From an uncultured Anaeroplasma sp. (lineage in GTDB: Bacteria > Bacillota_I > Bacilli_A > Acholeplasmatales > Anaeroplasmataceae), in assembly GCA_934216145.1 (NCBI GenBank), contig CAKQBG010000077.1, positions 1-5,911 of the forward strand: 5,911 nucleotides of DNA, read 5' to 3'. Positions 184-3,770 of this stretch are shown piece after piece; position 1 is the stretch's first letter, and every line of letters begins with the position of its first letter. The position numbers and the translations under genes are program-made. Under the pieces are notes generated by a model. It worked only from the letters and a program-made list of their open reading frames with translations. It was not told the DNA's origin and did not search any database.

Positions 184-372
184 ATGGCAAAGTGTTACAT
201 TACTGGTAAGACAACTATTACTGGTAACAAGAGATCTCACGCTTTAAATGCTACTCGTCGTACTTGGAAGGCTAACCTTCAAACAGTACATATTAAAGAT
301 GAAAACGGAAACGTTAAGAAGGTTAAAGTTTCTGCTAGAGCTTTAAAGAAGGGAAATATTGAAAGAGCATAA
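184..372 (+). CDS. rpmB: 50S ribosomal protein L28
   Basis: This is ribosomal protein bL28, a component of the large ribosomal subunit. The 62-residue length is normal for the family. The N-terminal block MAKCYITGK, the [16 protein letters not shown] region (about residues 18-33) and the [11 protein letters not shown] block (about 47-57) are characteristic. The start is fixed by a near-perfect Shine-Dalgarno, AAGGAGGT (170-177), six bases before ATG. The gene has its own promoter and terminator, so it is a one-gene unit. It faces the -strand cluster, as rpmB does in B. subtilis next to spoVM. Only one Cys is present (residue 4), so the four-ligand zinc site of some L28 proteins is absent. Confidence 0.97.
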
Positions 373-472: not shown

Positions 473-1306
473 TTAACTTCGTAAAGGCTTATCTAAAGAC
501 TCATTATGAATCTTATCAAGAATTTTTATATCTTCACTTGATATTCTAAAATCAACATCAAGATTTTCTTCTATTCTTTCCTTATGAATACTTTTAGGAA
601 GTGGTACTGTGTTCTTTTCAATACAATATCTAATACAAAGCTTAGGAATACTAACATTATATTTTCTAGCGATATTATTTAAATCAGGATTATCTAAAAG
701 CTTACCAGTAGCTAAAGGCGAATATGCTTCAATAACTATTTCATGTTTTTGACAATATTCAGTTAATTGACTTTGAGTATTTCCAATAAAATATCTAATT
801 TGATTAACCATTGGGGGTACATTAGTATATTTTGTAATTGCTTCTATATCTTTAATATGGAAATTAGATACACCTATACTCTTAATTAAGCCCTCATTAT
901 AAAGCTCAACAATTGCCTTCCATACCTCACAATTACCGCTAGTACAATCAGCTCCAACATTACTCCATGGCCATGGTGCGTGAATTAAATATAAATCAAT
1001 ATAATCGACATCAAGATTCTTTAAAGACTCAAAGAAATGCTTTCTAGCTCCATCATAGCTTTTAACATCTGCAGGACATTTAGTAGTTAAAAAAATTTCA
1101 TGTCTTGGTACCTTAGAATCCTTTATAGCTTTACCTACAGCCTTTTCATTACCATAAACATAAGCAGTATCAATATGCCTATATCCACATTCTAAAGCAT
1201 ATAATACTGATTTATAGGCATCGTTACTTTCACTTTGCCATGTACCAAATCCAATAATAGGCATCTTTACTCCATTATATAATTTAATAAAATCATTCTT
1301 TACCAT
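473..1306 (-). CDS. Aldo/keto reductase, AKR5-like (YvgN/YtbE type)
   Basis: A predicted cytosolic NADPH-dependent reductase of aldehydes or ketones with the TIM-barrel fold. Numbered from the chosen start, the tetrad is Asp46 and Tyr51 (in HIDTAYVYGNEKAVG), Lys76 (LTTKCP) and His109 (LIHAPWPW). The family signature GVSNF is at 145-149, NQ at 168-169 and EAYSPLATG at 193-201. The cofactor-phosphate motif PKSIHKERIEENL is at 237-249. I chose ATG at 1306 (277 residues, normal length) because AGGTGA lies five bases upstream. An in-frame GTG at 1315 would overlap that site. The usual NQIE-x-HP is here NQIRYFIG. The true substrate cannot be told. It lies between spoVM and rpmB, where B. subtilis has no such gene. 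Confidence 0.92.
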   Translation of the reverse strand: MVKNDFIKLYNGVKMPIIGFGTWQSESNDAYKSVLYALECGYRHIDTAYVYGNEKAVGKAIKDSKVPRHEIFLTTKCPADVKSYDGARKHFFESLKNLDVDYIDLYLIHAPWPWSNVGADCTSGNCEVWKAIVELYNEGLIKSIGVSNFHIKDIEAITKYTNVPPMVNQIRYFIGNTQSQLTEYCQKHEIVIEAYSPLATGKLLDNPDLNNIARKYNVSIPKLCIRYCIEKNTVPLPKSIHKERIEENLDVDFRISSEDIKILDKIHNESLDKPLRS

Positions 1307-1323
1307 TTCAATCACCTAATCAC

Positions 1324-1342: not shown

Positions 1343-1369
1343 AAAAAAAAAGAGGATTTAACCTCTTTT
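1343..1369 (-). terminator. Terminator of the rlmN-PASTA-rsgA-rpe-spoVM cluster
   Basis: On the - strand AAAAGAGG (1369-1362) pairs with CCTCTTTT (1355-1348) around a six-base loop, within an eight-T run (1350-1343). The loop contains the stop codon TAA (1360-1358) of the small SpoVM-like ORF, so its last four codons form the first arm of the hairpin. It separates the cluster from the reductase gene. Confidence 0.85.
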
Positions 1370-1438
1370 CTTAAAAAACATATTCCAAAGTGAAGAAACC
1401 TTCCTTGGTAAAAATATTATGATGAGATGGCATTTCAA
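1358..1438 (-). CDS. spoVM: Probable SpoVM-like small spore morphogenetic protein
   Basis: A 26-codon ORF, TTG start at 1438 and TAA at 1360-1358. GGTGA (1448-1444) lies five bases before the TTG, the same spacing style as neighbouring genes. The product begins MKCHLIIIFLPRKV and ends FFKKRG. B. subtilis SpoVM is also 26 residues, begins MK, has a Leu-Pro-Lys step before an amphipathic membrane helix, and ends basic. Here the step is Leu10-Pro11-Arg12, two residues later. SpoVM senses the convex forespore membrane and recruits SpoIVA for spore coat assembly. The gene sits 33 bases after rpe and faces rpmB, the expected spoVM place apart from missing thiN. An in-frame ATG at 1450 would give 30 residues but lacks a good ribosome binding site. 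The call rests on synteny, length, ribosome binding site and a short motif. Confidence 0.58.
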   Translation of the reverse strand: MKCHLIIIFLPRKVSSLWNMFFKKRG

Positions 1439-1443
1439 ATTAA

Positions 1444-1448
1444 TCACC
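1444..1448 (-). promoter_or_regulatory. Ribosome binding site that decides the spoVM start
   Basis: GGTGA on the - strand, continuing as GGTGAT, lies five bases before TTG at 1438. It is complementary to the GATCACC part of the 16S rRNA tail. The same GGTGA core serves rlmN, the PASTA gene and the reductase gene, which supports TTG over the upstream ATG. Confidence 0.55.
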
Positions 1449-1471
1449 ATTCTATCATATGTATTTAAATA

Positions 1472-2110
1472 TTAAATATTCTTAAGTTTATTTAAAGCAT
1501 CCTGTGGATTACTATTATTACAAATAAATGAACCACTAACAGCTAAATCAACATATGGTGCGATTAATGGAGCAGTTTTATCATTAATACCACCATCAAT
1601 ATTAATTAAATAGCTATAACCATTCTTTTCCTTTAATTCCTTTAATTCTTTACACTTATCAATCGAATTAGGCATAAAGCTTTGACCACCAAAGCCTGGT
1701 TCAACACTCATTACTAATACCATATCTACTAAAGGTAAATATTCTAAAATGTCTGAAACCTGAGTTTTAGGCTTAATAGAAATACCAGCTTTAACTCCAT
1801 AAAAATGAATTAAATCAATAGTCTTTTTAACATCACAATCAGCCTCAACATGGAAGGTAATATAATCACTTCCTGCTTTAGCAAATTGTTCAATATAATT
1901 TTGAGGCTTCATTATCATTAAATGAGTATCAATAGTAGTATTTATTTTTTTAGCTAAAGCTCCTATAAATGAATATCCAAAGGAAATATTTGGCACAAAT
2001 ACTCCATCCATAACATCCATATGAATATAATCTAAATCAGAAATAATATCCTTTAATGAATTTTCAACATTATAATAATCAACAGTTAAAATAGATAATG
2101 ATACCTTCAT
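1472..2110 (-). CDS. rpe: Ribulose-phosphate 3-epimerase
   Basis: A cytosolic enzyme of the pentose phosphate pathway that interconverts D-ribulose 5-phosphate and D-xylulose 5-phosphate. At 212 residues it is a normal-length TIM barrel. The metal and catalytic residues are in place: His30 and Asp32 in IHMDVMDGVFVPN (29-41), His63 in DTHLMI, and Asp172 in NIDGGI. The phosphate-binding segments VEPGFGGQSF (136-145) and VSGSFI (191-196) are also present. The usual N-terminal APSIL reads SLSIL here. Its ATG overlaps the rsgA stop by four bases (ATGA, 2110-2107), so the two are translationally coupled. AAGGAG inside the end of rsgA supplies the ribosome binding site. Confidence 0.96.
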   Translation of the reverse strand: MKVSLSILTVDYYNVENSLKDIISDLDYIHMDVMDGVFVPNISFGYSFIGALAKKINTTIDTHLMIMKPQNYIEQFAKAGSDYITFHVEADCDVKKTIDLIHFYGVKAGISIKPKTQVSDILEYLPLVDMVLVMSVEPGFGGQSFMPNSIDKCKELKELKEKNGYSYLINIDGGINDKTAPLIAPYVDLAVSGSFICNNSNPQDALNKLKNI

Positions 2111-3024
2111 TTTCTTTCTCCTTTTAATTCAAGCATTCTTAAATAACTTTCATATCTTGATTTTAATATTTCACCATTATTAACAGCTTCAATAACTCCA
2201 CAGCCTTTAGTATTTTTAGTATGCTTACAATCCTTAAATTTACAAAAATACTCCTTAAATTCAATAAATAAGCTATCAAGCTCATCAGTAGAAACACCAA
2301 GTAAATCTAATTTAGAAAATCCTGGAGTATCACCTATATATCCATTTTCTAAAAATGGATATAAATTAATCTCTCTTGTAGTATGCTTACCTCTACCTAG
2401 CGCATATGAAATCTCATTAGTTTTTAAAGAGAATTCAGGATATATAGAATTAATTAAAGTCGATTTACCAGCACCAGTTTGACCTGATAATACTGTAACC
2501 TTACCAATTAATGCATTCTTTACATTCTCTATTCCTTCACCAGTTAGACTATTAACATATAAAACCCTATAGCCTAGATTAACATAATAATTCATAGAAT
2601 TTTTAAGACTTATAAATTCATCAGAAGCTAATTTATCTATTTTAGAAATAACAATAAGTGGTTCTATTTTTTGTTTTAAAATATTAACTAAAAATAAATC
2701 TAATAAATAATATGAGAAATCAGGCTCCTTAGCCGCAAAAACTAATAATATTTGATCTACATTAGCTATATCTGGCCTAATCATTTCATTCTTTCTAGGT
2801 AAATAATGATCAATCATATCATTATCAACTACAACAACATCTCCAACCTTTGGAGAATTCTTTATAGTAGTCATACTAGCCTTTTTACTTAATGATTTAT
2901 CATTAACTACTTCCTTTTTCTCACTTCGAAGCTTACCTCTAGCTCTAACTGAAATAATACTACCATCAGCTAGTTCAACTTTATAAACTCCACCATTTAG
3001 ATTAATTATTCTTCCCTCTTGCAT
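2107..3024 (-). CDS. rsgA: Ribosome small subunit-dependent GTPase A
   Basis: RsgA (YloQ) is a circularly permuted GTPase that checks late maturation of the 30S subunit. Its motifs run in permuted order: G4 SKID (127-130, usually NKxD), G5 NSLTGEG (158-164), G1 GQTGAGKST (181-189), a G2 region GRGKHTTR (210-217) and G3 DTPGF (232-236). An N-terminal OB fold spans about 1-85 and includes VRARGKLR and the linker RKNEMIRPDIANVDQ. The C-terminal zinc site uses Cys261, Cys266, His268 and Cys275. Residues about 34-58 form a Lys/Ser-rich loop that looks longer than in typical RsgA. ATG at 3024 follows a modest AGAGGT site. It is coupled to rpe by a four-base overlap and probably has its own promoter. 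Confidence 0.96.
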   Translation of the reverse strand: MQEGRIINLNGGVYKVELADGSIISVRARGKLRSEKKEVVNDKSLSKKASMTTIKNSPKVGDVVVVDNDMIDHYLPRKNEMIRPDIANVDQILLVFAAKEPDFSYYLLDLFLVNILKQKIEPLIVISKIDKLASDEFISLKNSMNYYVNLGYRVLYVNSLTGEGIENVKNALIGKVTVLSGQTGAGKSTLINSIYPEFSLKTNEISYALGRGKHTTREINLYPFLENGYIGDTPGFSKLDLLGVSTDELDSLFIEFKEYFCKFKDCKHTKNTKGCGVIEAVNNGEILKSRYESYLRMLELKGERK

Positions 3025-3086: not shown

Positions 3087-3770
3087 TTAATATAGATAAT
3101 TTTTAGATACATAAATTTCAATTTTTGAGGTATTATCAGCATATACTAAGCTACCTGGTTCAATTTCTTGGTATATTACTAAATCATTCTCAAAAATAGA
3201 TTCAAAATATATAATAGTATATTCAAGCTTAAGACCATTTAATCTTTTTATGGCTAAATTAATATCCATTCCAATTAAATTAGGCATCTCTACATAATTA
3301 TATTCCTTAGCTAAAACCAAATAAATAATATCATTACTATTAATTTCCTCATTAGCCTTATCCTGAGATAAAATAGTATTTTTAGGCTTAATACTTTCTA
3401 TATATTCTATCCTAACCTCAATATTTAGATCCTTATAATAATCAATTACATTATCATCATATATTTCATTAATAAAGCATTTATATTTATCGTTATCTAT
3501 ACTAGGTCTAAATAATACTACCTCTTCTCCCTGATATATAGTCATACCCTCACTTGGAATAGTATAATAATATAAAGAAGAGCTATCCTCAATTTTGACA
3601 TTTAACCCTAATTTATTAAGTTCCTCCAGTATTTCATTTTCATTTTTCGATTCAATGTTAGGAATTACAACAATATTTCTTTTTATTATATTTGGATAAA
3701 AAAGCATCATAAATAATACGAAAATAAAAAAAATAATATTAGTAACCCATAGAAGCTTTAAAAACTTCAT
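3087..3770 (-). CDS. Membrane-anchored PASTA-repeat protein without kinase domain
   Basis: A 227-residue protein with a five-residue N-terminus, one hydrophobic helix (about 6-25) and an outside region of three PASTA-like units: about 33-89 (start VVIPNI), 97-154 (degenerate) and 158-222 (start VEMPNLIG, the clearest). PASTA units bind muropeptides or lipid II in PrkC-type kinases and in penicillin-binding proteins. The gene lies between rlmN and rsgA, the usual place of prpC and prkC. It matches the membrane and outer half of PrkC with the whole kinase gone, and only 47 bases separate it from rlmN, leaving no room for a remnant. ATG at 3770 follows GGTGA. It probably binds cell wall or assists a partner; it cannot phosphorylate by itself. 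An unrelated PASTA anchor is the alternative. Confidence 0.82.
   Translation of the reverse strand: MKFLKLLWVTNIIFFIFVLFMMLFYPNIIKRNIVVIPNIESKNENEILEELNKLGLNVKIEDSSSLYYYTIPSEGMTIYQGEEVVLFRPSIDNDKYKCFINEIYDDNVIDYYKDLNIEVRIEYIESIKPKNTILSQDKANEEINSNDIIYLVLAKEYNYVEMPNLIGMDINLAIKRLNGLKLEYTIIYFESIFENDLVIYQEIEPGSLVYADNTSKIEIYVSKNYLY

Follow-up and report, generated by a model that had tools for sequence, protein, structure and literature searches.

In the window, i.e., the whole stretch of 5,911 nucleotides of Anaeroplasma DNA analysed here, the minus-strand frame 1438-1358 is in all probability a divergent spoVM gene, encoding a small membrane peptide that would anchor SpoIVA. The gene is probably transcribed from a sigma-E promoter, and the lineage likely is an endospore former or was one until recently. 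Members of Anaeroplasma have been described as wall-less and non-sporing and are filed among the Mollicutes. A SpoVM together with a SigE-like motif common to spoIVA would mark sporulation, by gene position and by regulation, in a family called non-sporing. In 2024, Field and colleagues described sporulation genes, including spo0A, for the majority of Anaeroplasmataceae genomes and peptidoglycan genes such as mur for 40-60% of them; the parts of the main text consulted hold no mention of SpoVM, SpoIVA, or SpoVE (PMC10868615). SpoVM is described as a very short developmental protein that is seldom recognised in annotation (PMC3533761), and a limited literature search found no earlier report of it in Anaeroplasmataceae, nor of a motif common to spoIVA.

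The features of the window are as follows, L001 being the locus of the nearest relative:
184..372, plus strand: rpmB (ribosomal protein L28; PF00830, E 2.7e-19), convergent
473..1315, minus strand: aldo/keto reductase gene (PF00248, E 1.1e-58), separating spoVM from rpmB in the window and in L001
1345..1372, minus strand: intrinsic-terminator-like hairpin, seen by folding, its loop containing the stop codon
1358..1438, minus strand: spoVM-like coding sequence of 26 residues, TTG at 1438-1436 and TAA at 1360-1358
1444..1448, minus strand: GGTGA ribosome-binding site, 5 bases 5' of the TTG
1454..1461, minus strand: sigma-E-like -10 element CATATGAT, from a motif comparison of 20 loci
1472..2110, minus strand: rpe (ribulose-phosphate 3-epimerase; PF00834, E 7.9e-60), the conserved upstream neighbour of spoVM
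1475..1481, minus strand: sigma-E-like -35 element GAATATT, within the last codons of rpe
2107..3024, minus strand: rsgA (PF03193, E 3.2e-54), a conserved neighbour

The minus strand carries, in this order, genes for DegV, rlmN, a PASTA-domain protein, rsgA, rpe, the small frame, and the aldo/keto reductase, and rpmB lies on the plus strand. Judged by Rpe, the nearest relatives are L001, from the MAG of an uncultured Anaeroplasma (genome G001; 88% identity), and A. bactoclasticum (L002; 73%), the further ones being other Anaeroplasma or Acholeplasmatales MAGs. The PASTA protein encoded upstream of rsgA (minus strand 3087-3770 in the window, 1525-2208 in L001), at what we take to be the place of prkC in B. 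subtilis, has three PASTA stretches and no kinase match; it evolves fast, with 53% identity between window and L001 and a dN/dS of 0.38. The original prediction had placed the small frame facing rpmB. This is wrong for the window, where the two do not face each other directly because the aldo/keto reductase gene (473-1315) intervenes. In L003 and L006 the reductase gene is missing between spoVM and rpmB and the spoVM frame does directly face rpmB; five further loci (in G007, G027, G029, G030, and G160) hold rpmB and spoVM together.

Counting the start as Met, the frame encodes 26 residues, (L)KCHLIIIFLPRKVSSLWNMFFKKRG. The predicted TTG-started frame of 26 codons with a GGTGA site is real, with the TTG at 1438 and GGTGA 5 bases upstream; the ORF listing gives it four residues longer, from an upstream ATG (1450) overlapping the GGTGA. 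The stop codon was also correctly placed in the loop of a terminator: hairpin 1372-1345 has a folding energy of -11.6 kcal/mol (z -2.86; equalled by 2/200 shuffles) with the TAA inside the loop, and its 5' arm codes the basic tail KKRG. A simple sigma-70 and terminator scan of the window listed no terminator, the hairpin being seen by folding, and found fewer sigma-70 promoter-like sites than in shuffles. The likenesses to SpoVM named at the outset, namely the exact length, the MK start, the Leu-Pro-basic step, and the basic tail, can all be read in the peptide, in which the Leu-Pro step is followed by a short helix and the tail. An insertion of two residues near the N-terminus moves its proline from the usual position 9 to position 11, and Lys-Val stands at the place of the usual Phe-Leu. 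The two-residue insertion is common to the window and L001, and G006, G007, and G027 have a single inserted residue. Amphipathicity is weak, with a helix moment after the proline of 0.36, reached by 37.6% of the peptide's own shuffles, compared with 0.51 and 7.5% for B. subtilis SpoVM; that of the G006 SpoVM is weak too (53% of shuffles reach its value). Such natural variants with a moved proline offer material on how a tiny peptide reads curvature.

Curated models do not recognise the window peptide. The proposed search of its 26 residues against PF08183 found nothing, and no other Pfam or NCBIfam model, the SpoVM models included, matched at E <= 10; the L001 peptide was likewise without a match, and a typed B. 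subtilis SpoVM control passed both Pfam and NCBIfam. Among nine relatives' peptides scanned, that of G055 passes PF08183 (29.1 bits, cut-off 20.6) and NF033436 (38.3, cut-off 31), that of G027 passes NF033436 only (32.1, cut-off 31), six match NF033436 under its cut-off, and L001 is the one without a match. We also used a profile of 12 peptides, 11 from Anaeroplasmataceae and one from B. subtilis, with window and L001 left out. Against it, the L001 peptide ranked first among 335 frames (E 2.7e-6) and the window frame second among 196 (E 0.022); the interval between rpe and the reductase gene reached 8.3 bits, as did 8/2000 dinucleotide shuffles. It is position, frame conservation, and the intermediate L001, and not the score of the peptide itself, that place the window peptide among the putative SpoVM orthologs.

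With the alignment of the same 12 peptides (A3), a SpoVM ortholog was found in 19/55 genomes of the family at E <= 1.3e-3. Eleven of these genomes gave a row to A3, and their scores are high by construction because their own peptides form the rows; eight did not. Scores from outside the profile were 1.2e-3 for G001, 3e-6 for G029, 9e-6 for G044, and 8e-8 for G051, and the peptide of G042, G043, G045, and G048 is identical to the G046 row. As G042, G043, G045, G046, G048, and G049 are close relatives, the counts are not counts of independent events. An alignment with rows for window and L001 (A1), in which G001 scored E 1.3e-11, was circular and was discarded; in A1, genomes lacking a row of their own had weaker scores, from 1.1e-6 (G027) to 0.29 (G051), after which genomes were gathered by place and core and the peptides of eleven entered A3.

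All 19 orthologs lie after rpe on the same strand. Alignment of the interval in relatives, as had been suggested, bore out the peptide, which follows rpe directly in 18 genomes, with gaps of 18-44 bases; in G055, 626 bases separate rpe and spoVM and hold a thiN-like thiamine-pyrophosphokinase gene. L003 carries MKLFVIELPRFLSKLLNLFLKKSSSSK and L006 MKKIVIIKLPKFLVFLLNGFNRKR, both with an ATG start. By eye, no such peptide was seen in the DNA after the Rpe match in L002, L004, and L005, and the best A3 matches in G002, G004, and G005 had E 0.1 or worse. A search across the order (160 genomes) gave one more clear match, the G160 peptide (E 2.4e-6), which follows rpe, adjoins rpmB, comes from outside the family, and is absent from the profile. 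The next-best A3 match, in G016 (E 0.008), was rejected; its locus lacks rpe, rsgA, rpmB, and the aldo/keto reductase gene, and the peptide has no Leu-Pro. With regard to start codons, ATG is used in only 3/20 spoVM loci, and ten genomes (L112, L115-L119, L129, L152, L153, and L155) show ATT or ATC at the SD-spaced start; nine of these loci, all except L155, have an in-frame GTG inside the SD as an alternative.

L001 holds, at the same place, MRSHFIIIILPNLLSKILNRMFKKRD, with a TTG start as in the window. The two frames differ at 27/78 bases without a single indel and are open in both; an open frame survived in 18% of 20,000 neutral simulations, a similarity as high as that observed arose in 0.4%, and the two coincided in 0.2%. 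The reading frame is therefore conserved in a relative, with amino-acid similarity beyond neutral simulation, the point on which the original prediction could have failed. Nevertheless, only 12/25 residues of the peptide are identical compared with 88% for Rpe, and the constraint on the window frame is therefore weak or relaxed. Of the other genes compared, rpe (0.14), rsgA (0.17), and the aldo/keto reductase gene (0.27) have a lower dN/dS between window and L001 than the frame (0.32), and the PASTA gene (0.38) has a higher one. From the -10 element through GGTGATTA, 1/21 bases differ.

Upstream of spoVM, an ATATT-like element is followed after 13-14 bases by CATANNNT and then by GGTG. GGTG was present 5' of the start in 20/20 spoVM loci, the -10 form CATANNNT stood 13-16 bases before it in 18/20, and the whole motif was found in 16/20 (shuffle mean 0.36, max 3); this last score is post hoc because the motif, which also drew on a sigma-E consensus, was written after viewing those very regions. 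The regions upstream of spoIVA served as the test set, and there the unchanged motif occurred in 14/16 genomes (shuffle mean 0.58, max 4). The controls gave 0/50 before rpmB (shuffle mean 1.17) and 0/19 before rpe, where zero matches were to be expected with a shuffle mean of 0.18. The window reads GAATATT-13-CATATGAT, with a spacer of 13 bases, not 14, as in L001; by itself, the motif in the window is not significant, 5.8 matches being expected by shuffling. In B. subtilis, spoVM and spoIVA are described as being under SigE control (PMC517825), and we infer that the motif common to both genes here is a promoter read by SigE.

Among the 55 family genomes, SpoIVA was found in 16, Spo0A in 21, a strong SigF/G-type sigma factor in 20, SpoVAC/AE in 18, a SEDS protein in 20, and a penicillin-binding transpeptidase (PF00905) in 21 (G001, G003, G006, G007, G013, G027-G030, G042-G052, and G055, no others). 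All SpoIVA, SigF/G, SpoVA, and SEDS matches fall within these 21 transpeptidase genomes, as do 19 of the Spo0A matches; wall and spore genes seem to be kept or lost together in the 55 Anaeroplasmataceae genomes. The other two Spo0A matches, in G032 and G041, are Spo0A-type regulators in genomes with no other sporulation gene searched. The transpeptidase genome set includes 20 with SEDS, and 19 have a single full-length SEDS; on contigs C25 and C43 of G001, several partial SEDS matches, possibly duplicated or broken copies, accompany one full-length gene. A. bactoclasticum (G002) has none of these genes, beyond a sigma match at housekeeping level.

SpoVM was present in 19/21 genomes with sporulation and peptidoglycan genes and in 0/34 others (Fisher p 7e-13), the set of 21 comprising the 20 genomes with a strong SigF/G-type match and G006, which has SpoIVA and Spo0A. 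With the sigma factor alone as criterion the figures are 18/20 versus 1/35; the curated cut-off of the SigF model was passed by 0/20 of the sigma matches. The two genomes without SpoVM are G013, with none after rpe by eye, and G047, with an rpmB locus without rpe. A SpoIVA match accompanies SpoVM in 15/19 genomes; in G003, G027, G043, and G044, its lack may reflect either loss or incomplete assembly.

In G001, the closest relative found, spo0A, sigE, sigG, sigK, spoIVA, and spoVA are all present. NCBIfam matches were obtained for SigG (351-363 bits), SigE (282-300), SigK (248-260), Spo0A (313), SpoIIAA, SpoIIAB, SpoVAC, SpoVAD, and SpoVAE, with a weak SpoIIGA match upstream of sigE; SigK (by a subfamily model), SpoIIAB, and Spo0A passed the curated cut-offs, and SigG, SigE, SpoIIAA, SpoIIGA, and the SpoVA proteins stayed under them. 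SpoIVA matched with E 4.6e-82 in an open frame. Of the genes that a spore former was predicted to show, spoIVA, sigE, sigG, and spo0A were thus found in this relative, together with sigK, and sigF was not. As G001 carries the main sporulation regulators, the window lineage is likely an endospore former now or was one recently.

SpoVM of B. subtilis is described as an amphipathic peptide of mother-cell origin with a preference for convex membrane; it depends on Pro9 and recruits SpoIVA (PMC12004969). By homology, the window spoVM would be transcribed in the mother cell from its likely sigma-E promoter, and the peptide, which is presumably made, is predicted to localise to the convex forespore membrane and to sense its curvature through the flexible stretch before the proline. 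There it would recruit SpoIVA, the basal layer of the spore coat, and anchor it. Arguments against full function are the two additional residues, the altered core, the low helical moment, and the fast divergence.

The main rival reading starts from such points: the frame could be a decaying remnant, orthologous to spoVM by descent, with selection gone as the lineage loses sporulation. Fast divergence from L001 (12/25 identical residues), unmatched curated models, and weak amphipathicity would suit it, as would the many family members, A. bactoclasticum among them, without the sporulation genes searched. However, a remnant does not readily account for a frame that is open and indel-free in both window and L001 with a similarity above neutral simulation, nor for a single difference in 21 bases from the -10 element to GGTGATTA, and the genome of L001 retains the regulators and an open SpoIVA. 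We regard decay as unlikely, if the most serious of the alternatives.

Two other readings carry much less weight. That a different, vegetative small membrane peptide has taken over the spoVM site is very improbable given that the frame aligns with L001, whose peptide matches the SpoVM profile, that its sigma-E-like motif is common to spoIVA, and that the genomes in which orthologs were found all carry sporulation genes; in its favour are the residues after the proline, which are unlike SpoVM, and the strongly hydrophobic IIIFL stretch. Least probable of all, to the point of being negligible, is a chance frame over the terminator and the end of rpe, for orthologs follow rpe in 19/55 genomes and only 8/2000 shuffles of the interval score as well, even though the frame is short, starts with TTG, overlaps the terminator, and has a low raw score.

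SpoIIIAE (PF09546) was matched in 0/55 genomes, while the B. subtilis control was matched, and sigF was absent between spoIIAB and spoVAC in 7/7 spoIIA operons looked at (L174, L182, L183, L181, L140, L141, and L142/L180, in G001, G003, G027, G028, G029, G030, and G055). The operon order is spoIIAA-spoIIAB-spoVAC-spoVAD, with a gap of 52 bases in G001 where sigF is absent, and the 20 genomes with a strong SigF/G-type sigma have one each, that of G001 being nearest to SigG. SpoIIIA is reported for all spore formers then examined, and sigF is included in a table of stage II genes (PMC3533761). Without SpoIIIAE, and without sigF in the spoIIA operon, the lineage would have to sporulate by a reduced route. 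A tentative proposal, which we hold to be possible but rather doubtful, is that the uncultured Anaeroplasma kin are living endospore formers with wall and spore genes together and a stripped programme, in which the window SpoVM is a rewired curvature sensor. SpoIIAB would then hold the single SigG-type forespore factor, spoVM and spoIVA would be fired together by SigE, and the window SpoVM, with a proline two residues further along, would fit its own SpoIVA. Genomes without sigF in the operon and without SpoIIIAE would make a minimal sporulation programme a testable question; a limited literature search found no earlier report of the pairing of spore genes and transpeptidase (21/55) or of sigF missing from the spoIIA operon.

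Compared with B. subtilis SpoVM (PF08183, NF033436/NF011327), the window peptide shares the length of 26 residues, the MK start, the Leu-Pro step with a basic residue, and the basic tail, and its gene likewise follows rpe on one strand, has a sigma-E-like promoter motif, and, in the window's nearest relative, is accompanied by SpoIVA. It differs in having Pro11 instead of Pro9, with two residues inserted before Leu-Pro, Lys-Val for Phe-Leu, a shorter stretch after the proline, a TTG start, a tail coded within the terminator, and no match to curated models. SpoVM of Clostridioides difficile is described as a small peptide binding SpoIVA, like the predicted role of the window peptide, and as largely dispensable (PMC5607322); therefore, the presence of spoVM alone is no proof of its essentiality in the window lineage. 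The other Anaeroplasmataceae SpoVM (G003, G006, G007, G027, G055, and others) resemble that of the window in their place after rpe, ribosome-binding site, promoter-like motif, and Leu-Pro core, and many have a core nearer to B. subtilis, such as IKLPKFL in G006, G007, G027, and G055. Window and G001 form a divergent pair marked by the two-residue insertion and the aldo/keto reductase gene before rpmB. Unlike the window, G055 retains a thiN-like gene between rpe and spoVM, and its order rpe-thiN-spoVM matches what we take to be the B. subtilis order, rpe-thiN-spoVM-rpmB.
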